Source: Thermoproteota archaeon (GTDB lineage Archaea > Thermoproteota > Thermoprotei_A > EX4484-217-1). From it: a stretch of 64,000 bases of DNA. How positions within the stretch are numbered: position 1 is the first letter of the stretch; the number at the start of each line of letters is the position of its first letter. The position numbers and the translations under genes are program-made. Shown one piece after another: positions 5,965 to 44,990 of this stretch. Below the pieces are notes generated by a model. The model saw nothing but the letters and a program-made list of their open reading frames with translations, was not told where the DNA came from and made no database searches. The stretch spans positions 124,001 through 188,000 of the forward strand of contig JAPDJU010000002.1 in assembly GCA_029258915.1 (NCBI GenBank), written 5' to 3'.

Positions 5965-5970
5965 TTAGTA

Positions 5971-11650: not shown

Positions 11651-11748
11651 ATTTACCAGCGCCAACAACAAGTGGCCCCTACATAGAAAACACAAGTTGC
11701 ACAAATGTTTTCAGGGGCCACTTCTAATAACACCTATCTCTGGTAAAT
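11651..11748 (-). promoter_or_regulatory. Nested inverted repeat in the leader of the SerK-like gene (candidate structured RNA)
   Basis: Three nested complementary pairs are visible. The outer pair is ATTTACCAG (11651-11659) with CTGGTAAAT (11740-11748). The middle pair is AAGTGGCCCCT (11670-11680) with AGGGGCCACTT (11713-11723), 11 perfect base pairs. The inner pair is GAAAACA with TGTTTTC, leaving a short apical loop. Unpaired asymmetrical segments separate outer and middle stems, as in a folded RNA. The GC-rich middle stem stands out in AT-rich surroundings. On the minus strand the structure ends 18 bases before the ATG of the SerK-like gene, and TATA-like sequence (ttatatattttaaaat, about 11750-11765) lies just upstream. 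A leader regulatory RNA is the favoured reading; a small non-coding RNA or a protein-binding palindrome is possible. Confidence 0.55.
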
Positions 11749-11896
11749 CATTTTAAAATATATAAGTATTGTCCTAAAATATTGTTGAAGAAAACAATTA
11801 TGTAAAATAGTATTCGTACGAAAGAATTAATAAACCCCTGTAAAAATACTTGAATCTGGCGAGAGAGCACCCCTAACACCCCTCTTTCCGACCCTC

Positions 11897-12971: not shown

Positions 12972-13213
12972 TAAGTTTAGCCTCCTTCAAAGAAAGTGTC
13001 ATGAAAGTCTAATAACTTTTTACCTCATGAAATACCTCTCAGTTTCAAGAATAAGTTTGTATAAACCTTTCTGCAAACGCTCAATAATATATTTCCCTAG
13101 AGCTTCCCGACTAATTCCTTAAGTGCTTTGAACTAAAATCTTATAAGTGCACACATAGTCCTAATCCTATGAGCTAGAGCTTATTAGTATTTGTAACGTC
13201 TATGGTGTAATTA

Positions 13214-13750
13214 ATGAGTAAGATAACTAGTGGAGCTAAAGCCGGTCTTATTGGCGGTATGTTATCAGGGGTCATAGCTGGTTCAATAAACTATATGCAA
13301 ATGATGCTGTTTAAGGAAGAATATGTAAAGATGATGAGAGAAACCCTGAGAGAAGTAATTAGTAAGGCTGGTGGACAAATACCCTCAGGAATGTCTCTAG
13401 AACAGCTTGTTGAACCATCATATAATATTGGTAAAATCTGGGGTAGTATTGGAGCTATGGTAATATTTTTGATAATAGGCGTTATTGCTGGTATCGTATA
13501 TGTTCTGGTTTACGGAAAACTTCCAACCAAAAGCCCTATTTTTAAAGCATTAATTGTAACACTAACAATTTATATTATTTGGACAATTATTTCGAATGTT
13601 TTTGCTTTAAGAATAGGGGTATCAAGTTTTAGAGCAATGCCTCAAACATTCATGGTAATAGGATATATTCTAGGCTTTGTAGAGTACTGCATTTTAGGAT
13701 TAGTTATAGGTGCTCTACATTACAAATGGTACATTAGAACTGCTGAGTGA
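13214..13750 (+). CDS. Small polytopic membrane protein, first gene of an ABC export operon
   Basis: A 178-residue protein with about four membrane segments (near residues 8-28, 76-102, 110-133 and 141-170). The first is glycine-rich (AGLIGGMLSGVIAG) and an amphipathic loop follows it. No named family is recognised. Its TGA overlaps the GTG start of the ABC ATPase, so it is translationally coupled to that gene and probably forms part of, or is regulated with, the MacB-type exporter. A TATA-like gagcttattagtatttg lies about 30-45 bases upstream. Confidence 0.6.
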   Translation: MSKITSGAKAGLIGGMLSGVIAGSINYMQMMLFKEEYVKMMRETLREVISKAGGQIPSGMSLEQLVEPSYNIGKIWGSIGAMVIFLIIGVIAGIVYVLVYGKLPTKSPIFKALIVTLTIYIIWTIISNVFALRIGVSSFRAMPQTFMVIGYILGFVEYCILGLVIGALHYKWYIRTAE

Positions 13751-14499
13751 AAGGCGCAATGGAAGTGAAATTAGCCATGGAAACACCAGTTGAGAGTAAG
13801 CAAAAAGACCTAGTCTACATTTTAGACTCTGTAACTAAAATTTATGGTAAAGGCAGGTTAGCTGTAAAAGCATTAGATAACGTGTCTTTTACTGTTAAAC
13901 AAGGAGAATTTCTAGTGGTAATGGGGCCTTCAGGTTCAGGTAAAACTACGTTGCTCAATATTATGGGCATACTTGACAAACCTACAACTGGCAAAGTGTT
14001 TTTCTTAGGTAAAGACATTGGTAAATTGGATGATGCCGAGGCATCAAAAATAAGAGCTAAACACGTTGGCTTTGTTTTCCAAACCTTTAACCTGATACCT
14101 TGGCTTACAGCTTTAGAAAATGTAGAAATAGCTCTAGCAATAAGCGGATATCCATTCCATAAGCGTAAAAGGAGAGCTAAAGAACTTTTAGAATCAGTAG
14201 GATTAGGAGACCGATTACATCATAGGCCTACAGAATTAAGTGGTGGAGAGCAGCAAAGAGTTGCTATAGCAAGAGCTCTAGCTAACAATCCAGATGTCAT
14301 ATTAGCTGATGAACCTACAGGAAACCTGGATAGTAAGAGCGGTGATGTAATTATAAAAATACTTAAAGAACTTTCCCTAGAACAGAATAAAACAATTATT
14401 GTAGTAACACATAACTTTGAAATAGCTAAAGTTGCAGATAGAATAATTTATCTACACGACGGCAGAGTAGTTAAAGAAGAAGTTAAGGTGGTAAAATGA
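13747..14499 (+). CDS. ABC transporter ATP-binding protein, MacB/LolD family
   Basis: A 250-residue ATPase. Walker A is GPSGSGKTT, the Q-loop is VFQTFNLIPWLTALENVE, the ABC signature is LSGGEQQRVAIARAL, Walker B is ILADEPTGNLDS and the switch histidine lies in VVTHNFE. The signature and NLIPWLTALENVE loop are those of the MacB/LolD/FtsE group, which drives type VII mechanotransmission exporters and not importers. The GTG start overlaps the upstream TGA; an internal ATG four codons later is an alternative. The ATG of the next gene overlaps its TGA. With the FtsX-like permease at 15698 it forms the exporter core. Confidence 0.92.
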   Translation: MKGAMEVKLAMETPVESKQKDLVYILDSVTKIYGKGRLAVKALDNVSFTVKQGEFLVVMGPSGSGKTTLLNIMGILDKPTTGKVFFLGKDIGKLDDAEASKIRAKHVGFVFQTFNLIPWLTALENVEIALAISGYPFHKRKRRAKELLESVGLGDRLHHRPTELSGGEQQRVAIARALANNPDVILADEPTGNLDSKSGDVIIKILKELSLEQNKTIIVVTHNFEIAKVADRIIYLHDGRVVKEEVKVVK

Positions 14500-15713
14500 A
14501 GAAAAGGTATTCGCTCACCATATTAGTATTGATTATCTTAGCTTTATTTGTTTCAGTCAATATTTTAGAAGGAAAAGAAGACATATTGTTTATAGGTGCA
14601 AAATGGGGTGTTGAAGGAGTAGACCATATAGCAACGCCTGGATCCATAGATGCTATTACTGTTTACATAGCCCCAACATTAGCTAACGGACTTAAAGATG
14701 TTATAGCTGAGCTCTATTTACCTAAACCATTAGCAGGACTTGATGGTGGAAAAGTGGTTAAGACAAGCAGTTTAGTATTCATACCTAAAGGCCAAGTATT
14801 GCCATTAACGTTTAAGGTCATCATACCTTTAAATGTTATTGAAGGCAACTATACGTTTAGACTTAAAGTAAAATATACGATATTAGCTCCTTTACCTGAA
14901 GAAAGAAAATGGGAAATAGAATTTAGTCTTCCAATACTAGGCAGAACTGTTGTTTATGCAAAACTTCTCACTAACACTTTAGAAAAAGGTAAGATACAAG
15001 ATGTAAACTTTAACATAACTTATATAGGCAATGAACCGGCTGAAATAAGCGTAGATTTTAGATCTGAAACACTATCAATCCTAGATTATGAACCGAAAAA
15101 ACCTATACTTGCAGATAAACCACATAGCTTTGAAGCTAAAGCTAAGGTATACTGTCCTCCTGACATAAAAATAGATGCCTTACCCATTACCATTACAATA
15201 ACATATAAGACCTTGCAAACAGCAAGCACATATTCTAAAACATACATGATCCCTGTATCTAGAAAAGCTGAAGTTGGGTTCACTGAAATACAGCCTATAG
15301 TTTCAGATAACACAGTAACCATTAGAGGGCAGTTAGTAAACGTTGGAGATTACGATGCAAAATACTTAACAGTTTACGCTACATCGCCAGATAAGGGGTT
15401 AACAATAGAAAATCCAATAACATATATTGGAACATTAACTGCTGGTGAAGGATCAAGCTTTCTAATATATGCTTCTACTACGAAGCCAGGGAAATACAGT
15501 ATAAGTCTTTCAGCGAAATATTATGGACCTGATATGAAATGGCATGAAATTTCAGAAGAAATAAACGTTGAAGTTACGGGTGTGGCTAAGAAAGAAGAAA
15601 TAAGTGTTCCTCTAAGATATGAAGAAGTACTTCCAGCGATAATAGCGCTTTCAGTTGCTACACTAATTGTAGGGATTATTATAGGACGTTATACGAGGTG
15701 GAAAAGTGTTTGA
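14496..15713 (+). CDS. Exported membrane-anchored protein with CARDB/S-layer-like beta domains
   Basis: A 405-residue protein with an N-terminal signal/anchor (about residues 5-22), two or three Ig-like beta domains of about 100 residues and a C-terminal membrane segment (about 380-398, IIALSVATLIVGIIIG). Strand patterns such as VNVGDYDAKYLTVYATSP and GTLTAGEGSSFLIYAST are typical of CARDB/COG1361 domains in archaeal surface proteins. Encoded between the ATPase and permease with overlapping ends, it is probably the extracellular adaptor of the exporter, in a role comparable to MacA. It is not homologous to MacA as far as I can see. Confidence 0.7.
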   Translation: MKKRYSLTILVLIILALFVSVNILEGKEDILFIGAKWGVEGVDHIATPGSIDAITVYIAPTLANGLKDVIAELYLPKPLAGLDGGKVVKTSSLVFIPKGQVLPLTFKVIIPLNVIEGNYTFRLKVKYTILAPLPEERKWEIEFSLPILGRTVVYAKLLTNTLEKGKIQDVNFNITYIGNEPAEISVDFRSETLSILDYEPKKPILADKPHSFEAKAKVYCPPDIKIDALPITITITYKTLQTASTYSKTYMIPVSRKAEVGFTEIQPIVSDNTVTIRGQLVNVGDYDAKYLTVYATSPDKGLTIENPITYIGTLTAGEGSSFLIYASTTKPGKYSISLSAKYYGPDMKWHEISEEINVEVTGVAKKEEISVPLRYEEVLPAIIALSVATLIVGIIIGRYTRWKSV

Positions 15714-16918
15714 ACCTGTTAGACCTGTTAAGATTATCTGTTAAAGGACTTAAAAGTAGAACACTAAGAAGTATTTTAACGCTTCTAGGTATTCTAATAG
15801 GTGTAGTATTGCTTACCATAGTTTTAACAGTAAGCGACAGTACTACGTATTCTTTAACTTCAATATTTACTAAGGGAGGTTTAAACAATGTATACTTAGT
15901 AAGCAGGGGAACAATTAGTTTTCCATGGACTGATATTTCGCAAATGGAAAGAATACCCCATGTAATGGCTGTTTCACCATATTTAACTATAAGAGCCATG
16001 GTGAATTATGGAGGTTACAGAACAAGTGTAACGATTATTGGCTTACCTAAAGAAAAAATATCATTTGTAATACCGGATCTTGAAGTTAAAGAAGGATCTA
16101 AAATACTTATGGAAGGATGTTTTGTAGGAGCCTCTTTAGTAGAGGAAGCTGAGGAAAGAGGATTAAAAGTTAGGATTGGAGATCCTATCTACATTAATTT
16201 CCAAGGAGCGCGAACAGCATTAAGAGTTGAAGGAATTTTAGAGCAATACGGATTTACGTTTATAGGTCCCATAGACAATTCGTTAATAGTACCTCATCAT
16301 GTAGTACAGAAACTTGTTGAAGAAGTTATAGGTTCTAAAATGAGCGGATTCCAAACAGTAATAATTTCAGTTGATAATGTAGATAATGTAGACTTTGTGA
16401 TTGAACATTTAAAATACCTTTATAGTGGGCAAGTTAACATTTTTGCTGTTAAAGACATAGTCAAGGCTGTAACAGAAGGTTTGAGAAGTTTTACGATCCT
16501 TATAGGTAGTATTGCATCTGTTACTTTAGTTGTTGCATCTGTAGGTGTTATGAATGCAATGTTTACTACAGTAATGGAGAGAATAAGGATAATAGGTGTA
16601 TTAAGAGCTTTAGGTGCAAGAAGATATGAAATCTTACTTAACATAGTTTTAGAAGCTCTAACACTGGCCGTAATAGCTATAGTTGTAGGTATTCCCTTAG
16701 GAGTGTTTACAAGCTCACTACTTATTCAAGGAGGCATTATAGGTGGTTTAAGGGGCCCTGGAAGAGCGGGAGGTTTAGGTAGCATAGAGTTCGTTGTTAA
16801 CAATCAAACGTTAATGTTAGTTGCCTTTGTAACATTAGCTTTAACATTAGTAGGTACCTTGCCTCCAGCATATAGAGCTGCAAAACTTGAACCAGCTCAG
16901 GCCCTAAGGTACGAATAA
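15698..16918 (+). CDS. ABC transporter permease, MacB/FtsX family
   Basis: A 406-residue permease. The first membrane helix follows SVKGLKSRTLRSILTLLGILIGVVLL, the usual MacB N-terminus. Next comes a large extracytoplasmic domain (about residues 40-270), then three helices with the FtsX segment GVMNAMFTTVMERIRIIGVLRALGARR and a C-terminal PAYRAAKLEPAQALRYE. It overlaps the 3' end of the upstream gene by 16 bases with a GTG start; a TTG 12 bases later is also possible. The substrate is unknown; lipids, peptides or small toxic molecules are typical for the family. Confidence 0.9.
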   Translation: MEKCLNLLDLLRLSVKGLKSRTLRSILTLLGILIGVVLLTIVLTVSDSTTYSLTSIFTKGGLNNVYLVSRGTISFPWTDISQMERIPHVMAVSPYLTIRAMVNYGGYRTSVTIIGLPKEKISFVIPDLEVKEGSKILMEGCFVGASLVEEAEERGLKVRIGDPIYINFQGARTALRVEGILEQYGFTFIGPIDNSLIVPHHVVQKLVEEVIGSKMSGFQTVIISVDNVDNVDFVIEHLKYLYSGQVNIFAVKDIVKAVTEGLRSFTILIGSIASVTLVVASVGVMNAMFTTVMERIRIIGVLRALGARRYEILLNIVLEALTLAVIAIVVGIPLGVFTSSLLIQGGIIGGLRGPGRAGGLGSIEFVVNNQTLMLVAFVTLALTLVGTLPPAYRAAKLEPAQALRYE

Positions 16919-17817
16919 TGGCGCACCTACTTATTTGTAATGAGTATGATTTAGACCTAACTATGTTCCCTTCATTTACATCATCACTATTCGATAAAGT
17001 AAGCAGAAACTATTGGATTAAAATACATGGTTCATTTAAAGGTTTAAAACTTAAATTTAATGGTAGATTTTTAGAAGCAAACATAGATAACATAGATGTA
17101 ATCAATACGCTTTCCGGCTTATGGTACGACCCAAAAGAACATCTACGCAGATTAAGTAGAAGTTTAAGGCAAAAAGTAGACCCTATAGTTGAAGTTTATG
17201 GGAAAGTGAGGCTTTCAATAAACCCTTACGATAAGGAACTCGTATTTTTAGCTACTGTTCTTTCTCAGAGAACAAATTATCATACCAATGTGGTAAAGTG
17301 GGTTAGACGTATAGCTTTACTTATGGAAAGAGGTATGGATATTAGGTCAGTAAATATGACAAGTTTTGGTAAAAGCTATCAGCTAAGGAGAGCTAATATA
17401 GTTGTTAAACAATGCATAGACCTAGTAAGGTTAGACTCAGCACTCAATATGGAAGATATTTGGAAAATTAAAAGAGAGCTTCTCAAATGCAAATTTGTAG
17501 GACCTAAGGTTGCTAATGCCTATTTAATGTTTACACGTAGAGCACCCTACATAGCTCCCATAGATGTACATTTCTTAAGATTCATAAGAAACCTGGGACT
17601 CTTAGAGTTTAAAAGAAAACCTTTGAAAAGCGTTTGCCAAAAATACACATGTAGTATTTGCACTTTTAAACATGAATGCGTAGAAGCATTAGTTATGAAA
17701 GAATTTAAAACGCTTTCATCATGGATTCAAACTGTAGCTTACGTTCACGATAAAGTCTATTGTGCGAAGAAGAAATGTAATGTATGCCCATTTAAGGATT
17801 TATGCGTAAGACTTTAG
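16918..17817 (+). CDS. HhH-GPD DNA glycosylase with two tandem four-cysteine motifs
   Basis: A 299-residue protein. A central HhH-GPD domain (about residues 85-230) contains SQRTNYHT, the hairpin KCKFVGPKVANAYL with lysine at the bifunctional-glycosylase position, and PIDVHFLRF with the catalytic aspartate. Cys240, 245, 248 and 254 follow, spaced C-x4-C-x2-C-x5-C. Cys282, 287, 290 and 296 repeat the same spacing at the very end. Endonuclease III-type enzymes normally carry one such [4Fe-4S] loop. The N-terminal 80 residues resemble the N-domain of OGG/AlkA-like enzymes. The ATG overlaps the permease stop (TAATG). The target lesion cannot be read from sequence. Confidence 0.8.
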   Translation: MAHLLICNEYDLDLTMFPSFTSSLFDKVSRNYWIKIHGSFKGLKLKFNGRFLEANIDNIDVINTLSGLWYDPKEHLRRLSRSLRQKVDPIVEVYGKVRLSINPYDKELVFLATVLSQRTNYHTNVVKWVRRIALLMERGMDIRSVNMTSFGKSYQLRRANIVVKQCIDLVRLDSALNMEDIWKIKRELLKCKFVGPKVANAYLMFTRRAPYIAPIDVHFLRFIRNLGLLEFKRKPLKSVCQKYTCSICTFKHECVEALVMKEFKTLSSWIQTVAYVHDKVYCAKKKCNVCPFKDLCVRL

Positions 17818-33301: not shown

Positions 33302-33799
33302 TTGGGGACTGCTGTTGAAAGTGCCTCTATAGAAGTTTCTGCTGAAAGTAGGGTTCTGGTTCATGATAACTCAAAGTGTACAGCATGTACTACATGTATG
33401 ATTGCTTGTTCTATGAAGCATTTCGGTGTTGCCGATTATGAGAAGTCTTTTATAAAAATAATATTTAACCCCGTTGTTAAGGCTTTTGAAGCAGCATATT
33501 GTCACCATTGTGACGAACCTTACTGCTTAAACATATGTCCTGTAGATGCTATTTATAAAGACAAGTTGTCAGATGGAACAGTAATTGTACGTATAAGTAC
33601 TCTTAAGTGCATAGGTTGTGGTTCATGCAGGCTGGCTTGCCCTATGTCCATACCTCATGAAGACCCAGTTATGAGGGTTGCTGTTAAATGTGATTTATGT
33701 GATGGAGACCCTGAATGTGTTAAAGCCTGTCCTACACAAGCACTAAGATTTGTTCCTAGAAGTGAAGCATTAAACTTCCTTAAAAAAGTCTATGGGTGA
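33302..33799 (+). CDS. HycB/HydN-like ferredoxin with four [4Fe-4S] motifs
   Basis: A 165-residue protein with a TTG start after a ggtaggga SD. Sixteen cysteines fall into four cluster motifs: CTACTTCMIAC, CHHCDEPYCLNICP, CIGCGSCRLACP and CDLCDGDPECVKACP. This is the DmsB/HycB/HydN pattern, not the two-cluster NuoI pattern. HycB carries electrons between a partner oxidoreductase and the membrane hydrogenase in formate hydrogenlyase. Here it opens the hydrogenase operon and overlaps the antiporter-like gene by four bases. No formate dehydrogenase gene is seen, so its electron partner is unknown and may be HdrB-linked. Confidence 0.85.
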   Translation: MGTAVESASIEVSAESRVLVHDNSKCTACTTCMIACSMKHFGVADYEKSFIKIIFNPVVKAFEAAYCHHCDEPYCLNICPVDAIYKDKLSDGTVIVRISTLKCIGCGSCRLACPMSIPHEDPVMRVAVKCDLCDGDPECVKACPTQALRFVPRSEALNFLKKVYG

Positions 33800-34950
33800 C
33801 AGGATTAATGTTCATAATTATCGCGACGTTTGGTGTAATAACATTACTTATTACAGCTTTCTTAGCTCTCATAGAAAACGATATGAAGAGGATTATTGCT
33901 TATTCTACGGTAAGCCAGATGGGGTACATTATCTTAGCTTTAGGTTTTGGTTCTGCTTTAGGTTTAACGGCAGCACTATTTCACATGTTTAACCACGCTC
34001 TTCTGAAATCAATGCTCTTCTTAGCAGCTGGAGCAGTTATTTACGCTACTGGAACACGTGATATAACAAAGCTTGGAGGATTAATAAGCAGGACACCAAT
34101 TACAGCTTTAGCTGTTTTAGTAGGTGGCTTAGCTGTTGCAGGATTACCTCCATTGAACGGTTTTGCAAGTAAACTTCTAATATATGAAGCAGGTTTAGAA
34201 GCATCATTTAGAATAGGAGGTATTATTGGAAGGCTTTACTTACTATATACCTTAATAGCCATATTTGTTAGCGCACTAACACTACTCTACTTCATGAGAC
34301 TATTTTACTCTGTATTCCTAGGTCTGTCTTCAAAACTAACGTTGGAAGCACGGAAAGTACCGTTAATTATGAAAGCGGCTTTAATGATCTTAGCAACACT
34401 CTCTATAATTATTGGTGTTGCCCCCCAAATTGTTGTAGGTTCTTTAATAAACCCTGCGGTAGTAAACATTCTGGGCTTAAGTAGGCCGGCTGTTGAAGTA
34501 ACTTTCCTCGGATATAGTACTAGTATAGGATTCTACGGTGCAACCATTTTAACATTAGTGCTACTAGCTTCCGCATCCATAGTATTCTTAATGTACTACA
34601 TTAGCCTAACGTTCTATAAAAGAACAACATTACCTCCAGCTAAGGTTGCTGAAGAATTAAAAGACTTTAAGTATGAAGTTTTCACGGGAGGTGAAGCTAC
34701 ACCACCACTGTTACCTCTAGAGGAAACTAAGGTAACACCTGAAGAATTTGTGTTTGCGTTGAAAACGGCGTTTTCCAAGCCTTACGCATTTTCTATGAGG
34801 GGAGGATATGAGCGTTTAATAGTACGTGCTGCAGAGAAAATTTTCGGTTTTAGCAAGGAACTTGATATTATAAGGTTTGAAAATGTAAGTAGCTATGTAA
34901 CCCTATACGTTTTAATAGCATTAATAATGCTCTTGTATGTGCTAAGGTGA
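33796..34950 (+). CDS. Antiporter-like membrane subunit of group 4 hydrogenase, N-terminally truncated
   Basis: A 384-residue protein related to HyfB/HycC, NuoL/M and MrpD. It begins directly at the helix containing ENDMKRIIAYSTVSQMGYIIL, which is transmembrane helix 8 in NuoM. Helices 1-7, including the helix 5 glutamate and helix 7 lysine used for ion translocation, are absent; a full protein would have about 480-650 residues. HMFNHALLKSMLFLAAGAV and GGLAVAGLPPLNGF are the expected later motifs. No remnant of the missing part lies upstream, where the ferredoxin gene sits. It could still pair with another subunit, or be a rearranged relic. Starts at GTG 33796 or ATG 33808. Confidence 0.82.
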   Translation: MTGLMFIIIATFGVITLLITAFLALIENDMKRIIAYSTVSQMGYIILALGFGSALGLTAALFHMFNHALLKSMLFLAAGAVIYATGTRDITKLGGLISRTPITALAVLVGGLAVAGLPPLNGFASKLLIYEAGLEASFRIGGIIGRLYLLYTLIAIFVSALTLLYFMRLFYSVFLGLSSKLTLEARKVPLIMKAALMILATLSIIIGVAPQIVVGSLINPAVVNILGLSRPAVEVTFLGYSTSIGFYGATILTLVLLASASIVFLMYYISLTFYKRTTLPPAKVAEELKDFKYEVFTGGEATPPLLPLEETKVTPEEFVFALKTAFSKPYAFSMRGGYERLIVRAAEKIFGFSKELDIIRFENVSSYVTLYVLIALIMLLYVLR

Positions 34951-35588
34951 AGCTTATGGAGGAGTTTCTAAGCAAAATTCTTGAAAAACATAAGGATAAA
35001 ATTGTTAAGGTTAAAGAAATTGTACCATGGAGAGTAATATTTGAAGTACCTAATGGGAGGTTAAAGGAACTAGCAAAAGATGTCTTTGAAATCCACGGGT
35101 TCAGATTATCAACAATATCTACTTTAGACCAAGGATTCTACTTTGAATTACTTTACCACTTCGTAAAGGATAAATACGTATTAACACTAAAAACTGTTAT
35201 ATCTAAAGAAAATCCGAGAATACCCTCATTAACAGATATTATTCCCGGAGCAAACTGGCTTGAAAGAGAAGTCAGAGACTTATTCGGAATAGAATTTGAA
35301 GGACATGTAGAACCCGAAAGGATTGTTTTACCACCAGATTGGTCTCTCGAACCACCGCTTAGAAAACCTATTGCACCTAAACTTCCACCAACATATGCTG
35401 AGTACCTAGTAAACCTTATAAGTAAAGCAGCTTTAGCATCCATAACAGGCATTGTTAAGAGAAGAAGAACTAAAATGGGTCTACCTGAAGTAGTGGCACC
35501 TGTTTTAGAATCTAAGAAAGTCATTGAGGAGATAAGGAAGATTTCCAAAGAACTCGAAATAGATAGGAAAGTACCTGTCAGGAAGTGA
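34947..35588 (+). CDS. NuoC-like (30 kDa) hydrogenase subunit
   Basis: A 213-residue protein whose region about 80-130 has IPSLTDIIPGANWLEREVRDLFGIEFEGH, the signature of the NuoC/30-kDa family. PPDWSLEPPLRKP follows, as in HyfG/HycE-type N-terminal domains. In many group 4 hydrogenases this is fused to the catalytic subunit; here it is a separate gene, and the HdrB gene lies between the two. The start overlaps the stop of the antiporter-like gene. It is expected to sit in the cytoplasmic arm, contacting the small and large subunits. Confidence 0.88.
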   Translation: MKLMEEFLSKILEKHKDKIVKVKEIVPWRVIFEVPNGRLKELAKDVFEIHGFRLSTISTLDQGFYFELLYHFVKDKYVLTLKTVISKENPRIPSLTDIIPGANWLEREVRDLFGIEFEGHVEPERIVLPPDWSLEPPLRKPIAPKLPPTYAEYLVNLISKAALASITGIVKRRRTKMGLPEVVAPVLESKKVIEEIRKISKELEIDRKVPVRK

Positions 35589-35591
35589 TAG

Positions 35592-36470
35592 ATGATGCTC
35601 AAATACATATTTTACCCTGGTTGCTACGTTTCAACAATGCTCCCGCATGTTGAAGCAGCTATTAGGTTTATTCTTAAAAAGTTCAATGTTGAAACCATAG
35701 AGCTCGAGGATTTATCTTGCTGCCCGCCTAAAATTAATAGCATAGCGGATGAGCTTTTCTGGTTAACCGTAGCCGTTAGGAACCTTGCAATAGCTGAAAG
35801 TAAAGGATTAGACATCTTAACCCCATGTAATGGATGTTTTGAATCATTTTTCGAAGCTAAAATGATGTATATGGAGGGAAAGGATCTTAGAGAGAAAGTT
35901 TCCAACATACTTTCTAAGCTAGGATACAAGTTTGAAGGTAAGATCAAGCCTAAACACTTAATTGAAGTCTTATATGAAGATGTGGGTTTAGAGAAGATAA
36001 AGGAAAATATAGTCAAACCCCTTGGAGCGCTAAGGGTTGCTGTTCATTACGGATGCCACTTATTTATTGTAGAGCACGGTGGAGATGTTTGGAAGAAACC
36101 TAGAATGACCGACGAGCTGATAAAAGTTACTAGAGCCGAACTTGTTAGAGATGGGCTAGAAAGACTATGCTGCGGCTTTGTACCTTCAACAGTAGATGAT
36201 GCTTTCAGCTTAACCTACAGAACAGAAGTTAGGTTGAAAAGCGTTAAGGAATTAGGCGTTGATGCTCTTGTAACACCATGTCCACAGTGCCTAATGAGGC
36301 TTGAATTCGGTCAAGTAAGGCTTAGGGCTAAAGCAAGATACGATGTACCTATAATTCATTTAGCAGAGCTTCTAGCATTAGCTTTAGGTTTAGACCCTAA
36401 GAAATTTGGTTTTACAGTATATCATAAATCTCCTACAAAACTTATTCTTCAGAAAATTGGTTTAGGGTGA
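35592..36470 (+). CDS. hdrB: HdrB-like cysteine-rich (CCG domain) subunit
   Basis: A 292-residue protein. It begins YIFYPGCYVSTM and has two CCG modules: ELEDLSCCPPK with TPCNGCFESF, and VHYGCHLFIVEHGG with LCCGFVPS and TPCPQCLMRLEF. These are the two C-x(n)-CCG-x(n)-C-x-x-C motifs of heterodisulfide reductase subunit B, which bind the non-cubane [4Fe-4S] clusters that split disulfides in methanogens. No HdrA or HdrC is adjacent; the HycB-like ferredoxin may take the HdrC role. Location inside a hydrogenase operon (3 bases after NuoC-like, 4 before the large subunit) suggests a hydrogenase-linked disulfide or quinone-like reductase. Substrate unknown. Confidence 0.88.
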   Translation: MMLKYIFYPGCYVSTMLPHVEAAIRFILKKFNVETIELEDLSCCPPKINSIADELFWLTVAVRNLAIAESKGLDILTPCNGCFESFFEAKMMYMEGKDLREKVSNILSKLGYKFEGKIKPKHLIEVLYEDVGLEKIKENIVKPLGALRVAVHYGCHLFIVEHGGDVWKKPRMTDELIKVTRAELVRDGLERLCCGFVPSTVDDAFSLTYRTEVRLKSVKELGVDALVTPCPQCLMRLEFGQVRLRAKARYDVPIIHLAELLALALGLDPKKFGFTVYHKSPTKLILQKIGLG

Positions 36471-36474
36471 AAAC

Positions 36475-37650
36475 ATGGGTATGTGTAGTCGTAAAGTTTA
36501 CTCCGTACCTGTAGGCCCATATCACCCTGCACTTGAGGAAATGGCTTTCTATAAGGTTTACGTTGAAGGAGAAAGAATAGTTGATGCTTTAATTAAACCC
36601 GGTTTTAACCATAGAGGTATAGAGAAACTTGCTATGAAAAGAAGCTACCGTAGAAACGTTCAGCTTTTTGAGAGAGTTTGTGGAATATGCTCGGCTGCTC
36701 ATACTACAGCCTATTGTGTTGCTGTTGAGAGATGTTTAAAAATTGATGTCCCTAAAAGAGCACAGTACATTAGAGCTGTTCAAGCTGAAGCAAATAGGAT
36801 CCATAGCCATCTTCTATGGTTTGGTGTTGCAATGCACGTAATAGGTTTCGACACATTATTCATGCACTCATGGGCTATTAGAGAGGATATTTTAGATGTT
36901 GTAGAGACATTGACAGGCAACAGAGTAAACTACTCCGTGAACACTATTGGTGGTGTTCGTAGAGACATAACACCAGAAATGGGTAAGTACATTCTCGAGA
37001 AACTAAATAAAGTCGAGAAGGGGACAAAATACCTTATTAGAGCAGTTAAGGAAGACCTGACAATAAAAGCTAGAACGAAGGAGGTAGGTGTTTTAACTAA
37101 GGAAGAGGCTAGGAAATACTGTGATGTTGGACCTACAGCTAGAGCCTCAGGAATAGAGGAAGATGTTAGAAGAGCTGATCCACACATAAACTACGAAGAT
37201 TTCGACTTCGAAGTATGTGTCGAAGACACATGCGATGTTTACGCTAGGATTATGGTAAGGCTTAGAGAGGCCTTAGAATCCATAAAGATAGTGAGGCAGG
37301 CTATCAAAAACTTACCTAAAGGACCTTTAATGGCTGAGTTAACTGTTCCTAGACCAAATGAGGATATTGGTAGAACGGAAGCACCAAGAGGAGAACTAAT
37401 ATACTATATTAAGTCAAATTACACCAATGTTCCGGAAAGAGTGAAATTGAGAACACCAACATTCGTAAACTTACCCTCAACTAAGCCCATGCTCATAGGC
37501 GATAAATTAGCTGATGCGCCTCAAATAATTGTAAGTATAGATCCATGCTTATCATGTAATGATAGGGTTATCATAATAGATGTGAGAACAGGTAAGGAAA
37601 AAACAATGCTTCTTGATGAAATCATAAGGAGGAAGGGTAAGGTATGGTAG
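36475..37650 (+). CDS. [NiFe] hydrogenase large (catalytic) subunit, group 4
   Basis: A 391-residue NuoD-like protein with both metal-binding pairs: Cys69/Cys72 in ERVCGICSAAHT and Cys358/Cys361 in DPCLSCNDR. All four cysteine ligands for the NiFe centre are therefore present, unlike the true NuoD of complex I. The motifs match Ech/Hyc/Mbh-type group 4 enzymes. After DPCLSCNDR a 27-residue tail follows, the place where HycE is cleaved by HycI, so a maturation protease should exist; none is in the window. The enzyme should oxidise H2 or reduce protons, coupled to the membrane arm. Confidence 0.93.
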   Translation: MGMCSRKVYSVPVGPYHPALEEMAFYKVYVEGERIVDALIKPGFNHRGIEKLAMKRSYRRNVQLFERVCGICSAAHTTAYCVAVERCLKIDVPKRAQYIRAVQAEANRIHSHLLWFGVAMHVIGFDTLFMHSWAIREDILDVVETLTGNRVNYSVNTIGGVRRDITPEMGKYILEKLNKVEKGTKYLIRAVKEDLTIKARTKEVGVLTKEEARKYCDVGPTARASGIEEDVRRADPHINYEDFDFEVCVEDTCDVYARIMVRLREALESIKIVRQAIKNLPKGPLMAELTVPRPNEDIGRTEAPRGELIYYIKSNYTNVPERVKLRTPTFVNLPSTKPMLIGDKLADAPQIIVSIDPCLSCNDRVIIIDVRTGKEKTMLLDEIIRRKGKVW

Positions 37651-38585
37651 CTCAATTATTGTTAATAATAGGCTTATTAGTGTATCCAGGCTTCGTTTTC
37701 TCAATACTTTACGGAGGAATCTTAATCTGGATTTATCGTAAGATAAGAGCTAGAATGCAAGGTAGAAGAGGGCCTCCATGGTATCAGACGTACGCTGACA
37801 TTATGAAACTATTATCTAAAGAAACTATAATTCCGAGAAATGCTTGGAGAGTAGGATTTATCGGAGCACCCATAATATCCATAGTTTCTCTGGCTACCGC
37901 TATGCTTCTTATCCCAATTTGGTCTAGTAAACCCTTACTAGGCTTTGTAGGAGACACTATTGTGCTATTGTATTTACTAACTGTGCCTACATTTGCCATA
38001 ATTTTAGCAGGTATTTCATCTAATAGCCCATACGGTATTGTTGGAGCGAGCAGGGAAGCTTCACTGCTAGTATGGTATGAGCTACCCTTCTGGTTCTCTA
38101 TAGCAACAATTCTCATTCTAACCGGAACTTTAAGTGTTGAAAAAATAGTTAGCATCCAAGCTACCCTAGGCCCCAATATTATTAGAGCGCCGCTAGCTTT
38201 CATAGCCTTCATAATAGCTGCTCAAGCGAAATTAGCAAAAAGACCATTTGACATACCTCATGCTGAAACAGAAATTGTCGCCGGCCCATACACTGAGTAT
38301 TCAGGTGTTCTAAGAGGATTTTTTGAAATAAATGAAGCTCTGAAATGGCTTACAATATCGTCTGTAACAGCTACGTTCTTCCTTGGATGGCCTATTACAG
38401 GTAATCCCGTATTTAATGCCCTATTGTTCATGGTTAAAGTAGCACTATTCGCTATAATATTCGCAGTAATAGACATAATCAATCCAAGGTTTAGAATTGA
38501 ACAAGCACATTGGCCCCTATGGAAGGTAGCATTGATTATAGCATTAATTGATCTTGTAAGAATACTTGCTGGAATAGGTGTGTAG
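37644..38585 (+). CDS. NuoH/HyfC-like membrane subunit
   Basis: A 313-residue protein with eight membrane segments. The signature IRARMQGRRGPPWYQTYADIMKLLSKE in the first cytoplasmic loop and RPFDIPHAETEIVAGPYTEYSG in a later one are those of NuoH, HycD and EchB, the subunit that joins the hydrogenase arm to the membrane. The start overlaps the large-subunit stop by seven bases. All conserved loops look intact, in contrast to the truncated antiporter-like subunit. Confidence 0.92.
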   Translation: MVAQLLLIIGLLVYPGFVFSILYGGILIWIYRKIRARMQGRRGPPWYQTYADIMKLLSKETIIPRNAWRVGFIGAPIISIVSLATAMLLIPIWSSKPLLGFVGDTIVLLYLLTVPTFAIILAGISSNSPYGIVGASREASLLVWYELPFWFSIATILILTGTLSVEKIVSIQATLGPNIIRAPLAFIAFIIAAQAKLAKRPFDIPHAETEIVAGPYTEYSGVLRGFFEINEALKWLTISSVTATFFLGWPITGNPVFNALLFMVKVALFAIIFAVIDIINPRFRIEQAHWPLWKVALIIALIDLVRILAGIGV

Positions 38586-38587
38586 AA

Positions 38588-39142
38588 ATGAAGGTAAATA
38601 TTCTTAAAGAAGCTGCAAAGTATTTCGTAAAACCAGCTACAGTACCCTTTCCAGCAGTTCAGCCTCACTTTCCTAAGAAATTTAGAGGTCCACCAAGATA
38701 TGATCCTGAAACATGTATTGGATGTGGAGCCTGTGCACATGTATGTCCATCTGATGCTATAACGGTTACAACAAAGGATGGGAAGAAAATATTAGAGGTC
38801 TGGTTCGGTAAATGCACATTCTGTGCTAGATGTGAAGAAGCATGTCCAGTAGATTCTATAAAGCTAATGGAAATTTATAGTACGCCTTCACCGAACAAGT
38901 TCGATTTCGTCTCTAGAGTAGAACATGACATGGTTAAATGCCGTATATGCGGAAAATACTTTGCCACAGTAAAGCATGTTGAATGGATAATTAAAAATGT
39001 TAGAGAAAAAATGGGAGAGACTGTTTCAATAAGTGAACTTAAAAACTATTTAATGACATGTCCTGAATGCAGACATAAAGTAGAAAATGTTCCTAGTTTT
39101 AGGAAGCTTCTCATGAGAGTTCTTGTTAAAGAGGTGAAATAA
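38588..39142 (+). CDS. NuoI/HyfH-like two-cluster ferredoxin subunit with C-terminal zinc-ribbon-like segment
   Basis: A 184-residue protein. Residues about 40-90 carry two [4Fe-4S] motifs: CIGCGACAHVCP and CTFCARCEEACP. The C-terminal 70 residues add VKCRICGKYF and TCPECRHKVE, two C-x2-C pairs about 40 residues apart, suggesting a zinc ribbon or treble clef not found in NuoI. Similar tails occur in some archaeal and HycF-type subunits. It passes electrons from the small subunit towards a soluble donor or acceptor. The start is two bases after the NuoH-like stop. Confidence 0.88.
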   Translation: MKVNILKEAAKYFVKPATVPFPAVQPHFPKKFRGPPRYDPETCIGCGACAHVCPSDAITVTTKDGKKILEVWFGKCTFCARCEEACPVDSIKLMEIYSTPSPNKFDFVSRVEHDMVKCRICGKYFATVKHVEWIIKNVREKMGETVSISELKNYLMTCPECRHKVENVPSFRKLLMRVLVKEVK

Positions 39143-39145
39143 CTC

Positions 39146-39601
39146 ATGTGTGGTTTACTTTGCAAATTAGCTGCATGGGCTAGAAAGAAGTCTCCATGGA
39201 TTTTCCACTTACCGGCAGGAGGTCTATGTAACGGATGCGATATTGAAATAGTTGCAGCATTAACTCCAAGATATGATGTTGAACGCTTCGGAATCCTGTT
39301 AGCGCCAAGCCCTAAACATGCAGACATACTCGTAGTTGCAGGTCAAGTAACTAAGCACACAAAAGAACGATTACTGAGGGTTTATCAGCAAGTACCTGAA
39401 CCTAAAGCTGTTGTAGCTGTAGGTTCATGCGCTATCTCAGGAAATGTTTTTGGAACAGAAAACTACCCGCTAGCAGGAACAGTTGATCAATTTATTCCTG
39501 TTGACGTATATGTCCCTGGATGCCCACCTAAGCCAGAAGCAATAATTTTAGGAATTGTTGAAGCAATAAAGAAGCTTGAGGGGGAAACTAGAAAATCATA
39601 G
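39146..39601 (+). CDS. [NiFe] hydrogenase small subunit, NuoB-like
   Basis: A 151-residue protein with the NuoB/EchC pattern. GGLCNGCDIEIVAAL gives C-x2-C, then GSCAISGN and VYVPGCPPKPEAI supply the remaining cysteines that bind the proximal [4Fe-4S] cluster. It pairs with the large subunit at 36475. It starts three bases after the previous gene and ends the operon; the convergent hypD stops six bases later. Confidence 0.92.
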   Translation: MCGLLCKLAAWARKKSPWIFHLPAGGLCNGCDIEIVAALTPRYDVERFGILLAPSPKHADILVVAGQVTKHTKERLLRVYQQVPEPKAVVAVGSCAISGNVFGTENYPLAGTVDQFIPVDVYVPGCPPKPEAIILGIVEAIKKLEGETRKS

Positions 39602-39607: not shown

Positions 39608-40774
39608 TTAAACTATATTATCTAGCCCAAGAATTTTAGCTAACTCCTTAACCTTACCCTCACCTCCAAATCTAGCCCAAACAGCACATGTTCCTTCGGA
39701 GGAAACCATACAAGGCCCATAGGGTCTACTTGGCGTACAAGCCCTCATAAACAAGGGGCAATCGGTAGGTACAGCTTTTCCTAAAGTAACGTCACCACAT
39801 TTACATCCTGGAGGAAGATCTATTGAATAATCTATTTTAACATCAAATAATGTCCTTGAATCATAGTCTTTGAATTTTTCTTTCAATTCCAATCCGCTTC
39901 TAGGTATAACACCTATACCTCTCCAGTCAGCGTTTATAACGTTAAATGCTTGTTCCACATATTTTTGGGCAACAATGTTTCCTTCCCAACTATCAACCCT
40001 AGAATATTCATTATATACTCTAAACTTACCTTCTAAATGCTGTTTTAAAATTTCTAGAATAGCTAAGAGCACATCTAATGGTTCAAAACCAGCCACAACA
40101 GCAGGTATATTGTATTTTTCAGGGATAAATTTCCAAGCCTTAGCGCCGGTGATCGATGTTACATGTCCTGGAGCAATAATTCCGTTTAAAGGTATATCTG
40201 GTTGGTTTAAAACATAGTCTACAGCAGGAACAGTTAATCTATAAGCTATGATTAACTTTAAATTCTTAGGTATTGATTTTAAAACAATATGACTAGCTGT
40301 TGTTGGCTGTGTTGTTTCAAAACCTACGGCTAAAAATATGCACGGCTTGTTTTGTTTTTTAGCTATCTTAATAGCATCTAAGAACCCATAAACTATTCTT
40401 ACATCTCCACCTAGACTTCTAGCTGCAGCTAAGCTCATTTTTGTTCCAGGAACCTTATACATGTCACCGTAAGTTAGTAAGGTTACGTCATAGTTTAAGG
40501 AAAGCTCTATGGCTTCATCAATTATTCTGGTTGGTGCAATGCACACAGGGCATCCAGGTCCAGCAATTAATTCTAAGTTTTCCGGCATAAGGCTTCTTAA
40601 ACCATAATATGTTATAGTGTGTTCATGTGTTCCGCAAACATGCATTATTTTCAGCTTATCAGCGCCATATTTTCTCATAACCTTAGGTGCTAGTTTATGT
40701 ATTCCTTTAACTATATCCTTAATAATGCTTAGTTCTCTATACACTTTGATAATTTCTCGAAGCCCTTTCCTCAT
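39608..40774 (-). CDS. hypD: Hydrogenase maturation protein HypD
   Basis: A 388-residue protein. IMHVCGTHEHTI, IAGPGCPVCIAP, VGFETTQPTTA and DLPPGCKCGDV plus CPLFMRACTP are the conserved cysteine motifs of HypD, which holds a [4Fe-4S] cluster and builds the Fe(CN)2CO unit with HypC. The gene lies on the minus strand facing the hydrogenase operon and is divergent from hypE with a 95-base gap that holds both promoters. Confidence 0.93.
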   Translation of the reverse strand: MRKGLREIIKVYRELSIIKDIVKGIHKLAPKVMRKYGADKLKIMHVCGTHEHTITYYGLRSLMPENLELIAGPGCPVCIAPTRIIDEAIELSLNYDVTLLTYGDMYKVPGTKMSLAAARSLGGDVRIVYGFLDAIKIAKKQNKPCIFLAVGFETTQPTTASHIVLKSIPKNLKLIIAYRLTVPAVDYVLNQPDIPLNGIIAPGHVTSITGAKAWKFIPEKYNIPAVVAGFEPLDVLLAILEILKQHLEGKFRVYNEYSRVDSWEGNIVAQKYVEQAFNVINADWRGIGVIPRSGLELKEKFKDYDSRTLFDVKIDYSIDLPPGCKCGDVTLGKAVPTDCPLFMRACTPSRPYGPCMVSSEGTCAVWARFGGEGKVKELAKILGLDNIV

Positions 40775-40869: not shown

Positions 40870-41901
40870 ATGAGAATATTGAAGACAATAACTTTAGCCC
40901 ATGGTGCTGGAGGCAGGGAAACAGGGGAAATTATTGAGAAATTCTTTGTTAACCTGTTTAAAATTAAGAGAGTAGGTGAGGGTATAGGTTTAGATGATTT
41001 AGAGGATTCAGCAACAATACCTTTAAGCGATGGAGGTCATTTAGCTTTTACAATAGATAGCTATACTGTAAACCCTATTTTCTTTCCGGGAGGTAATATA
41101 GGAAAGCTTGCAGCAACAGGAACAATTAATGACTTGGCAGTAATGGGTGCTAAGCCTTTAGCAGCAATGGACTCTATGGTTATTGAAGAAGGATTTAGTA
41201 TAGAAGATCTTGAGAAAATATTAAACTCCATGAAAGGGGTTTTAGAGAAATATAACATAGCCTTAATAGGTGGAGATTTTAAAGTCATGCCGAAAGACCA
41301 GGTAGATAAAATAGTTTTAACAATGGCAGGTATTGGCCTGATACCTAAAGGAAGACTAATAAAGGATTCTTATGTTAAACCAGGAGATAAAATAGTTGTT
41401 ACAGGACCTATAGGTGAGCATGGAGCAGCAATTATGATTGCACAAGCAGGTCTTGAAGCAGAAGCACCAACTATTAGAAGCGACTGCGCACCCGTAATAG
41501 ACGCTATAGAGGCAGCTTTCACGGTAAGAGGAATACACGCTGCTAAAGACCCTACAAGAGGAGGACTAGCTATGGCACTAAATGATTGGGCTAAGAAGGC
41601 AAAAGTATCTATAATTATTTGGGAGGAAAAAGTACCGTTAAGAGAAGAAGTTAGGATTTATAGTGAAATGTTAGGAATAGATCCGTTCACATTAGCTTCA
41701 GAAGGAATAGCATTAATAGCTGTAGAACAAAGTAGAGCTGAAGAACTCGTAAATAAGCTTAAAGACATAGGGTATAAAAGAGCAGAAATAATAGGGGAAG
41801 TAAGGAAGGAAAGAGAAGGCTATGTGCTAGTAGAAACCATCAGTGGAGGTTTAAGAATATTGGAACCTCCTGTAGGAGAAATAGTACCTAGAATATGTTA
41901 A
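40870..41901 (+). CDS. hypE: Hydrogenase maturation protein HypE
   Basis: A 343-residue AIR-synthase-fold protein. Markers are LAHGAGGRETGEII, GGDFKVMP, RGIHAAKDPTRGGLAMAL and the essential C-terminal cysteine in PRIC, which HypF carbamoylates and HypE dehydrates to thiocyanate, the source of the cyanide ligands. A gaggagg SD precedes the ATG. It is followed closely by the PspC gene. Confidence 0.94.
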   Translation: MRILKTITLAHGAGGRETGEIIEKFFVNLFKIKRVGEGIGLDDLEDSATIPLSDGGHLAFTIDSYTVNPIFFPGGNIGKLAATGTINDLAVMGAKPLAAMDSMVIEEGFSIEDLEKILNSMKGVLEKYNIALIGGDFKVMPKDQVDKIVLTMAGIGLIPKGRLIKDSYVKPGDKIVVTGPIGEHGAAIMIAQAGLEAEAPTIRSDCAPVIDAIEAAFTVRGIHAAKDPTRGGLAMALNDWAKKAKVSIIIWEEKVPLREEVRIYSEMLGIDPFTLASEGIALIAVEQSRAEELVNKLKDIGYKRAEIIGEVRKEREGYVLVETISGGLRILEPPVGEIVPRIC

Positions 41902-41902: not shown

Positions 41903-42319
41903 GTGGTGCTTTTGAGTTCAGAAGAAGCTCCTAGAAAGCTATACCGTTCATGTGTAGATAGAATTCTTGGAGGAGTATGTGGCGGACTAGCAGAACATTT
42001 TAACATAGACTCAACCATAGTTAGACTATTGTTCGTAGCATTTTTCGTGATTAACCCTGCAGCTGCAGCTATAATTTACATTGCTGCATGGGTTATAATC
42101 CCCGAGAAACCTTACTTAACTCCTGAAGAAAGAATGGCCTTAGAAAAAGCTGGCGTAAAGAAGAGAGAAGAAGGCCTTATCTTAATAGGTCTTTTACTAA
42201 TACTAGCTGGAGTAATTGGAGCAGCGAGAATGCTTGTTATTCTAAGAGATATTTCAAGCATGATATTAATTATCACAGGATTATTCATAGTAATTGTAGC
42301 ATTGTTTAAGAGAAAGTAG
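41903..42319 (+). CDS. PspC-domain membrane protein
   Basis: A 138-residue protein. The segment KLYRSCVDRILGGVCGGLAEHFNIDSTIVRLLFV is the PspC domain, with its first membrane helix in VAFFVINPAAAAIIYIAAWVIIP. Two more membrane segments follow (about residues 85-105 and 112-132). Several starts are possible (GTG at 41903 or 41906, TTG at 41912 after an aaggtggtg SD). PspC proteins respond to membrane stress in bacteria; the archaeal role is unknown. It directly follows hypE. Confidence 0.85.
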   Translation: MVLLSSEEAPRKLYRSCVDRILGGVCGGLAEHFNIDSTIVRLLFVAFFVINPAAAAIIYIAAWVIIPEKPYLTPEERMALEKAGVKKREEGLILIGLLLILAGVIGAARMLVILRDISSMILIITGLFIVIVALFKRK

Positions 42320-42635: not shown

Positions 42636-44990
42636 ATGATTAGAGGGCATAGTGTACTAATGGATAAGATAGCATTAAAGCTTAGGGTTTCAGGAGTAGT
42701 TCAAGGAGTTGGTTTTAGACCTTTCATTCATAGAATAGCTTGTAAAAGCAATGTTAAAGGCTATGTGAGAAACTTAGGGGGTAGTGAAGTAGAGGTTCAT
42801 GTAGAGGGAGAATTAAGTCAAGTACTTAGATTCCTAAACTTGCTTGAACTGGAGAAACCACCACCTGCAGTTATAGAGGAATTAGAGATAGAAAAAACAT
42901 GTTTACTGAGTTTTAAAAACTTCTCAATTCTTAAAAGCGGTTCAGAGCATAAACTTTACTCTATGATACCCCCCGATATAGGGCTATGTGAATACTGCTT
43001 AAATGAAATACTTAACCCTAAAAGTAGATGGTATATGTATCCGTTCAATAGTTGTGCATGGTGTGGTCCAAGATTCTCAATTATGGAGAAGGTTCCTTAT
43101 GATAGAGAAAATACAACGATGATAGACTTTCCCTTATGTAGTGAATGTCTTAAAGAATACAGAGACCCTAATAATGTAAGAAGATTTCATGCCCAAGGAA
43201 TTAGCTGTCCTAAGTGCGGACCTAAAGTATGGTTAACTGATAGAAATGGGGAAACATTGTCTGTAAAAAACCCTATACTTGAAGCAGCTAAGCTAATAGA
43301 TGAAGGCTTCATAGTTGCAATTAAAGGCATTGGCGGTTTTCACATAGCCTCATTAGCTACGGATGATGAAGTTATTTTAACTTTAAGAAAACGTAAGCGG
43401 AGACCTCAAAAACCCTTTGCACTAATGGCTTTAAACCTTGAAGTTGTGGACAAAATAGCCGTTTTAAATGAGAAAATAGTGAAAGTACTAACTTCACCTG
43501 AAAAACCAATAGTACTCATACCTAAAAGGGAAAATAATATTGTTTCAGAATATGTGGCACCAGGACTTGATACACTAGGTATAATGTTACCTTACACAGG
43601 TTTACATTACATGTTACTAAGTGAAACTAAAGATAAATTTCTAATAATGACAAGTGGTAATCCAAAAGGTAAACCTATGTGTATCGATGAAAAATGCGCT
43701 TTTGACAAATTATCAAAGTATGTTGACTACTTCTTATTACATAATAGGAGAATAGTGAATAGAGTTGATGATAGTGTTGTTAGACTAACTTGCGATAAGG
43801 TAGTGTTTTTACGTAGAAGTAGAGGTTATGCTCCTAAGTGGTTTAAATCCCCCGTAAAAATATTGAAACCTATTGTAGCTTTCGGAGCAGAACTTGTCAA
43901 TGTTGGCGCTATAGCGCTGAAAAAGCATATAATACCCACGCAGTATATCGGAGATATGGATGATTACGAAACATTAAATTTCCTAGAAGAAGCATTAATA
44001 TTCCTAATAAAAACCTACAATGTGAATCTAAGTAGAGCCATTTTCGTATCAGATATGCATCCACAATACGCTACAACTAGATTGGCTAAAGAGTGGGCTA
44101 CAAGATACTGTTCCAAGCTGATAACAGTTCAACATCATCATGCCCACATAGCCTCTTTAATGGTAGAGCAAAAAATACCGCCTCATAGAAATGTTGTAGG
44201 CGTAGCTATCGACGGCATAGGGTACGGTGTTGATGGTAATATTTGGGGAGGCGAAGTTTTAATAGCATCATATAATGCTTTCAGAAGAGTAGGTCATTTA
44301 TCGTATCAAGTTATGCCTGGAGGCGACCTAGCAACAATATACCCTGTAAGAATGCTAATAAGCTACCTCATAACTGTTTACGGTGAAGAATATGCTAAAA
44401 AGTATGTTACTAATAGTGGGCTTTACAAGTGGCTAAAATACGGTCTTCGAGAATTAAATATTATAGTAAACCAAGTAATTAACAGCTTATCACCTAAAGC
44501 GTCTAGTACTGGCAGATTTCTTGACGCTGTTTCAGCTTTACTCGGTATATGCTATTTAAGAACTTATGAAGGAGAACCCGCAATGAAACTTGAAGCCTAT
44601 TCTAAAAGACGTAAGGGCAGAGTTCTTGACTATCAGCCTAAAATAGATGCTGTGAACGGCGTTTTCATAGTTAACGTTGCAGATATGTTTAAATGGGCTT
44701 TCGAAAATATGAATGCTAAGCGTAAAGAAGACATTGCAGCAACAGTACAATACTGTTTAGGCGAGGCATTAGCAGAAATAGCATTAAAAGCTATTAAAGG
44801 GACAGAATTACTACCTAAGATTTTAATTAGCGGAGGGGCTGCAGTAAATGATTTCATAGTTAAAGCAGTAATTGAGAAAGCTAAGGAGGAAGATGTAGAA
44901 GTTATTTTAAATAAGCAAGTACCTCCAGGAGATGGAGGATTAGCCTTAGGTCAAGCAGCCATAGCAGCTTCCCACATAGTTGAAGAGTAG
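42636..44990 (+). CDS. hypF: Carbamoyltransferase HypF
   Basis: A 784-residue multi-domain protein. The acylphosphatase domain comes first (SGVVQGVGFRPFIHR). Two zinc fingers follow (CEYC...CAWC, CSEC...CPKC), then a YrdC-like domain (KGIGGFHIASLATDD) and a Kae1-like domain (VQHHHAHIASLMVEQ, GGDLATIYPVRM). HypF converts carbamoyl phosphate to carbamoyl-AMP and loads HypE. The homology starts at about residue 9, so an ATG at 42660 may be the true start. Length is normal for the family. Confidence 0.93.
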   Translation: MIRGHSVLMDKIALKLRVSGVVQGVGFRPFIHRIACKSNVKGYVRNLGGSEVEVHVEGELSQVLRFLNLLELEKPPPAVIEELEIEKTCLLSFKNFSILKSGSEHKLYSMIPPDIGLCEYCLNEILNPKSRWYMYPFNSCAWCGPRFSIMEKVPYDRENTTMIDFPLCSECLKEYRDPNNVRRFHAQGISCPKCGPKVWLTDRNGETLSVKNPILEAAKLIDEGFIVAIKGIGGFHIASLATDDEVILTLRKRKRRPQKPFALMALNLEVVDKIAVLNEKIVKVLTSPEKPIVLIPKRENNIVSEYVAPGLDTLGIMLPYTGLHYMLLSETKDKFLIMTSGNPKGKPMCIDEKCAFDKLSKYVDYFLLHNRRIVNRVDDSVVRLTCDKVVFLRRSRGYAPKWFKSPVKILKPIVAFGAELVNVGAIALKKHIIPTQYIGDMDDYETLNFLEEALIFLIKTYNVNLSRAIFVSDMHPQYATTRLAKEWATRYCSKLITVQHHHAHIASLMVEQKIPPHRNVVGVAIDGIGYGVDGNIWGGEVLIASYNAFRRVGHLSYQVMPGGDLATIYPVRMLISYLITVYGEEYAKKYVTNSGLYKWLKYGLRELNIIVNQVINSLSPKASSTGRFLDAVSALLGICYLRTYEGEPAMKLEAYSKRRKGRVLDYQPKIDAVNGVFIVNVADMFKWAFENMNAKRKEDIAATVQYCLGEALAEIALKAIKGTELLPKILISGGAAVNDFIVKAVIEKAKEEDVEVILNKQVPPGDGGLALGQAAIAASHIVEE

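Follow-up and report, generated by a model that had tools for sequence, protein, structure and literature searches.

The hydrogenase operon

The window analysed here is a stretch of 64,000 nucleotides from a Thermoproteota archaeon (contig JAPDJU010000002.1; genome G000 in our collection). At positions 33302-39601 of its + strand, eight open reading frames (ORFs), joined by overlaps or by gaps of a few bases, encode a group 4 [NiFe] hydrogenase with an HdrB protein embedded among its subunits. The first-pass annotation had described eight packed genes with complete HdrB CCG, Ni and Fe-S motifs, and ORF, profile and motif checks bore this out.

The families of the eight products were assigned by Pfam and NCBIfam profile matches. 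The first gene (33302..33799) encodes a HycB/NrfC-like ferredoxin of 165 aa whose 16 cysteines form four [4Fe-4S] motifs, and which matches HycB/HycB3-type chains of formate hydrogenlyase (FHL). It is followed by an antiporter-like subunit of the HyfB/HycC type (33796..34950, 384 aa), matched by Pfam and by PDB chains, and by a NuoC-like (30 kDa) subunit (34947..35588, 213 aa; PF00329, 96 bits), the counterpart of the N-terminal part of HycE. HdrB itself (35592..36470, 292 aa) precedes the hydrogenase large subunit (36475..37650, 391 aa), which is NuoD-like and corresponds to the C-terminal part of HycE. In the large subunit the four Ni ligands are complete, lying in the motifs RVCGIC (C69, C72) and DPCLSC (C358, C361); the nearest relatives of this protein among solved structures are HycE of FHL (7z0s) and MBH (6cfw). 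The last three genes encode a NuoH/HycD-like membrane subunit (37644..38585, 313 aa), identified by family matches; a NuoI/HycF-like protein (38588..39142, 184 aa) with two [4Fe-4S] motifs and a C-terminal CXXC...CXXC pair; and a NuoB/HycG-like small subunit (39146..39601, 151 aa) with a hydrogenase-type CXXC (CNGC).

The HdrB protein consists of two PF02754 domains, each with a complete C-x(n)-CC-x(n)-CxxC motif (C11, C43-C44 and C79/C82; C155, C193-C194 and C230/C233). It scores 233 bits against TIGR03288, under the 345-bit equivalog cut-off, and aligns over its full length to the solved methanogen HdrB (E 1e-61), the closest of the solved chains. It is the sole CCG-domain protein found in the genome, so that no other HdrB, HdrD, GlpC or SdhE competes for its role. 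There is no HdrA or HdrC gene in the operon, no cytochrome b HdrE beside HdrB, and no FdhF formate dehydrogenase gene in or beside the operon.

The gene order closely resembles that of FHL and hydrogenase 4 of E. coli (hyc, hyf), a parallel that had gone unnoticed in the first reading of the locus. The E. coli operon runs hycBCDEFG, and the window has counterparts of HycB, HycC, both parts of HycE, HycD, HycF and HycG. It differs in that hycE is split into NuoC and NuoD around hdrB, hycD is shifted behind NuoD, the antiporter subunit is of half length and there is no formate dehydrogenase.

Conservation of the linkage between HdrB and hydrogenase

HdrB-interacting group 4 [NiFe] hydrogenases have been named and modelled by Kohtz et al. 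2022 (PMC9723716): Ehd of Methanomethylicia, Ehe of Culexarchaeia, Drh of Methanocellales and Ehg of Nezhaarchaeia. The initial remark that no enzyme of this kind had been described is therefore not correct, and the window operon is a member of these little-studied complexes, sharing with them the group 4 core, its metal ligands intact in the large and small subunits, and a co-located hdrB. The published study proposed that they link H2 to the reduction of CoM-S-S-CoB or of another disulfide, the former for Ehd and Drh in methanogens; it also found GcvH in the Ehe gene cluster, and an antiporter subunit in Ehd and Ehe that is absent from Drh.

Because the taxonomic order of the window comprises four genomes only, related loci were sought in a wider sample of 398 genomes, all of its own phylum, by NuoD and HdrB searches followed by retrieval of the neighbourhoods. 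The class to which the window genome belongs is probably Thermoproteia, judging by its Sulfolobaceae-like members with an sHdr-type HdrB. The linkage of hydrogenase and HdrB is kept in about 20 further loci of that phylum, and is thus well beyond chance; an adjacency unique to the window genome is ruled out by this recurrence. A scan of the genome collection with the window HdrB returned only an unrelated CCG protein of Rhizobiaceae, at 21% identity.

Three layouts can be distinguished. In layout A (the window, G294, G422 and G365) the order is HycB-(antiporter)-NuoC-HdrB-NuoD-NuoH-NuoI-NuoB, and G294, which belongs to another family, has an eight-gene order identical to that of the window. 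Layout B, with about 10 loci, is HycB-NuoC-HdrB-NuoD followed by a NuoB/NuoI fusion, with no membrane gene (NuoH or antiporter) nearby; these loci (L100, L104, L105, L116, L119, L129 and others) could encode a soluble H2:disulfide oxidoreductase of the group 4 type. Layout C, with seven loci, has HycB, a small gene and HdrB, and then NuoB, NuoCD, NuoH and NuoI in variable order; several of these loci carry gcvH and HdrA/HdrB-like genes and resemble the published Ehe. The loci L117 and L118 share with Ehe an HdrA/HdrB pair with a 123-aa gene between, a 558-aa gene at the place of SdhA, and GcvH. A separate arrangement occurs at L127 and L128 (G337, G317), where the cluster reads HdrB-HycB-NuoI-636 aa-HdrA-137 aa-NuoC-NuoD-NuoH-NuoB-antiporter and is similar to the Ehg (formate dehydrogenase/HdrA/MvhD) type of Kohtz et al.

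The order HycB-(antiporter)-NuoC-HdrB-NuoD is found in about 13 loci besides the window, which identifies HycB-NuoC-HdrB-NuoD as a conserved unit. Across the layouts the constant neighbour of HdrB is a HycB gene rather than HdrC, in agreement with the earlier suggestion that a HycB-like protein stands in the place of HdrC.

Phylogenetic analysis points in the same direction. HdrB proteins encoded in hydrogenase operons, that of the window among them, fall into a single clade (96/94), separate from the HdrBs of the sHdr type and from others. The ten cysteines are conserved throughout this clade, except that the row of G001, which belongs to the window's family, has lost C11 to a contig end. The HdrB-linked large subunits fall in one clade (99/96) with E. 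coli HycE and HyfG and with a CooS-linked hydrogenase of the window genome, separate from the other group 4 forms; the data are consistent with a single origin of the HdrB-linked NuoD type (p-AU 0.415). The window NuoD groups with Ehe-like loci in this same 99/96 clade, which also holds the FHL and CooS-linked forms, in trees that contained none of the published sequences of Ehd, Ehe, Drh and Ehg. For HdrB, NuoD and HycB the pairwise distances are correlated with r of 0.89-0.94, and none of 2000 permutations gave values as high. The dedicated clade and the correlated distances indicate that HdrB, NuoD and HycB travel as one unit, and the placement of HdrB within a hydrogenase unit, as first annotated, is thereby supported.

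These results bear on the possibility that HdrB is shared with an HdrA-Mvh-MetVF complex encoded elsewhere and lies in the operon only for co-expression. The genome does contain two HdrA-like proteins, an Mvh-type hydrogenase and MetV/MetF-like genes, and has no other HdrB to serve them. However, the window HdrB belongs to the clade of group 4 hydrogenase operons, its distances follow those of NuoD, and the surroundings of the HdrA genes showed no HdrC gene, so we regard this explanation as very unlikely.

Compared with the published types, the window operon has several distinguishing features. NuoC is separate and lies upstream of HdrB in an FHL-like order, unlike in Ehd, Ehe, Drh and Ehg; the antiporter subunit is present only as its C-terminal half, unlike in Ehd and Ehe; and the operon lacks SdhA, CdhA, FdhF, HdrA and GcvH. 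The published type is HdrBC, whereas the partner of HdrB in the window is a four-cluster HycB-like protein, a comparison in which HdrC was considered by name only. In the literature searched, no description was found of a layout that combines a NuoC gene ahead of HdrB with a half-length antiporter. With Ehe the operon shares non-methanogenic hosts, and it adds a further non-methanogenic lineage of archaea to those known to carry HdrB-linked hydrogenases. Two further systems offer partial parallels. HdrABC and HdrDE have the same HdrB family with both non-cubane cluster motifs, but here there is no adjoining HdrA, HdrC or HdrE and the hosts are without MCR. In Bathyarchaeia Family-4.3, hdrB2 lies within the fpo operon (PMC8407382), a likeness, by published description only, in the insertion of hdrB into a complex I-like operon.

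A half-length antiporter subunit

The gene at 33796-34950 had been described simply as an antiporter-like subunit. The gene is present and its family is matched, but what it encodes is a HyfB-type protein reduced to its C-terminal half, a point that had been missed. The Proton_antipo_M match (Pfam) starts at model position 147 of 294, PDB homologues align from about residue 280, and TM1-8 are absent. Consequently there are no equivalents of NuoL E144, NuoL K229 and NuoM K265 (the Glu of TM5 and the Lys residues of TM7 and TM8), while the TM12 Lys (K126, equivalent to NuoL K399), H67 and K71 are retained. The upstream hycB is complete, with a ...YG-stop end as in G294, and its stop overlaps the antiporter gene in GTGA. 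The rest of the 64-kb window contains no vestige of the absent N-terminal half. The half-length form is known from one assembled genome.

At the corresponding position, G294 encodes an 857-aa protein consisting of a full antiporter subunit with an extra C-terminal half, G422 has a separate 258-aa antiporter half after the subunit, and G365 has no antiporter gene. Such an additional module of about 250 aa, a C-terminal half fused to or following an antiporter-like subunit, can be seen at L098 9427-11997 and L096 6959-8304.

With the N-terminal channel apparently gone, ion pumping by the window complex would be lost, reduced, or carried out through NuoH and the remaining half-channel. The subunit may in this respect be a natural experiment that tells which parts complex I-like pumps need.

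A putative H2:disulfide oxidoreductase

In FHL, HycB passes electrons from formate dehydrogenase to HycF and HycG and on to the NiFe site. From the FHL-like gene content and order, and from what is known of the HycB family, we propose that the product of the operon is a group 4 [NiFe] hydrogenase of the FHL type, anchored in the membrane, in which HdrB is a second catalytic module replacing formate dehydrogenase, a reading to which we assign a probability of roughly 0.72. HdrB would take the site of FdhF, and the HycB-like protein would carry electrons from the hydrogenase arm to HdrB and back. Electrons could then move reversibly from H2 through the NiFe site of NuoD, the NuoB cluster, the NuoI clusters, the HycB clusters and the non-cubane clusters of HdrB to a disulfide/dithiol pair. 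If this electron chain is right, the complex would be an H2:disulfide oxidoreductase.

Several observations weigh against this proposal. The antiporter gene, being truncated, could be in the course of decay. In G001, which carries the operon with an HdrB 56% and a NuoD about 82% identical to those of the window, hdrB (L095, G001:C55, 1-828) is interrupted in frame by a TAG codon where the window has Trp57; the contig starts inside hdrB, which puts hycB and the antiporter gene outside the comparison. The gcvH gene of the window genome is located outside the operon, grouped with gcvT, gcvPA and gcvPB. Pyrrolysine at the G001 TAG was considered and dropped: TAG serves as a normal stop codon in these genomes, ending 16 of the 65 window ORFs, and most hydrogenase-linked HdrBs have Trp at this site. 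The TAG is either a sequencing error or a sign that HdrB is dispensable in G001, whose nuoD, nuoH, nuoI, nuoB and hyp genes are intact.

The missing antiporter half and the TAG would both fit a decaying or inactive locus, the remainder of which is an ordinary ferredoxin- or HycB-linked hydrogenase. Such decay is nevertheless improbable, given that all other cofactor motifs of the window are intact, neighbouring genes overlap in the manner of a translated operon, and hypDEF are retained downstream in both the window genome and G001. In addition, the extra half modules in G294 and G422 mean that antiporter halves recur within the family.

Candidate disulfides

For an HdrB acting in such a complex, the candidate disulfides are few, because this small genome has one HdrB only, lacks MCR and encodes no dihydrolipoyl dehydrogenase (DLDH) that can be recognised. 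The question of the substrate has thereby become testable. The disulfide is probably non-methanogenic, and may most plausibly be the lipoyl group of GcvH rather than CoM-S-S-CoB.

Reduction of CoM-S-S-CoB coupled to H2, as for Ehd and Drh, would be in keeping with the nearness of the window HdrB to that of methanogens among the solved chains. We consider it extremely unlikely, since MCR alpha is absent from all 24 genomes searched (the window genome and 23 others, most of them with the operon) in searches that detected it in both methanogen controls; moreover, the operon is without HdrA and HdrC.

A special case of the H2:disulfide proposal is that the complex replaces the missing L-protein (DLDH) of the glycine cleavage system and moves electrons between lipoyl-GcvH and H2. 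We offer it as a tentative possibility. An interaction between GcvH and HdrB has already been suggested for Ehe (PMC9723716), and gcvH lies immediately upstream of hycB in G282, G342, G412 and G437, and upstream with one flavoprotein gene between in G294. The window genome has GcvPA, GcvPB, GcvT and GcvH. It has no match to TIGR01350 (DLDH) at E<=1e-55, and its only PF02852 protein is without the CXXXXC redox disulfide. DLDH is unrecognisable in nine of ten GcvP-containing genomes with the HdrB-hydrogenase, versus 24 of 138 without it (p 4e-6). The G001 genome, with its TAG in hdrB, has a canonical DLDH-like protein.

On the other hand, phylogeny confounds this contrast, which by family becomes 8:1 versus 14:17 (p=0.027): many GcvP-containing lineages without DLDH also lack the HdrB-hydrogenase. 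Given the drop from p 4e-6 to p 0.027, we do not take the association as proof, and regard the lipoyl link as suggestive. Half of the carriers of the HdrB-hydrogenase have no GcvP, and a flavoprotein resembling CoA-disulfide reductase in the window genome (L189), a relative of which adjoins gcvH in G294, may be the real L-protein.

A lipoyl-protein:H2 oxidoreductase, allowing glycine cleavage (or synthesis) to run directly against H2 in archaea that lost DLDH, is a rather doubtful prospect; if the link were true, H2 would be coupled straight to glycine metabolism without NAD(H). With potentials of about -0.29 V for lipoamide and -0.41 V for H+/H2, the turning point of the reaction would lie near 10 Pa H2, and the direction that it takes is therefore not readable from sequence. 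There is a precedent of a different kind in sHdr sulfur oxidation, where HdrB-type proteins are linked to a lipoate-binding protein, LbpA (PMC6067878), in a gene set that has HdrB paralogues in pairs together with HdrA/HdrC. The pairing of an HdrB-type protein with a lipoyl carrier (a candidate one here) is common to both; the window genome, however, has a single CCG protein and no sHdr gene set, and the partner is a hydrogenase.

Neighbouring genes and other loci

Directly downstream of the hydrogenase genes are genes for [NiFe] maturation, and the order of hydrogenase and hyp genes is the same in G001. HypD (39608..40774, - strand) and HypE (40870..41901, + strand) were identified by family match, the former in the same place and orientation in G001, and a HypF-like carbamoyltransferase (42636..44990, + strand) by its translation and its place after hypD and hypE. 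Between hypE and hypF, at 41903-42319, there is a gene for a PspC-like small membrane protein, whose position is kept in G001 (L095 6325-6738).

Two other loci of the window genome encode related enzymes. At L146 (G000:C5:14000-33000), positions 2597-17009, two HdrA-like genes, with neither HdrB nor HdrC, are grouped with Mvh-type hydrogenase genes and adjoin likely genes for subunits of acetyl-CoA synthase and for MetV/MetF (Wood-Ljungdahl pathway). At L103 (G000:C2:30000-49000), positions 1933-16483, there is a second group 4 hydrogenase, linked to a CooS-type CO dehydrogenase that scores 753 bits against TIGR01702. With a HycB/CooF-like protein and Mrp-like antiporter genes, the two make up a probable CO-dehydrogenase/hydrogenase complex.

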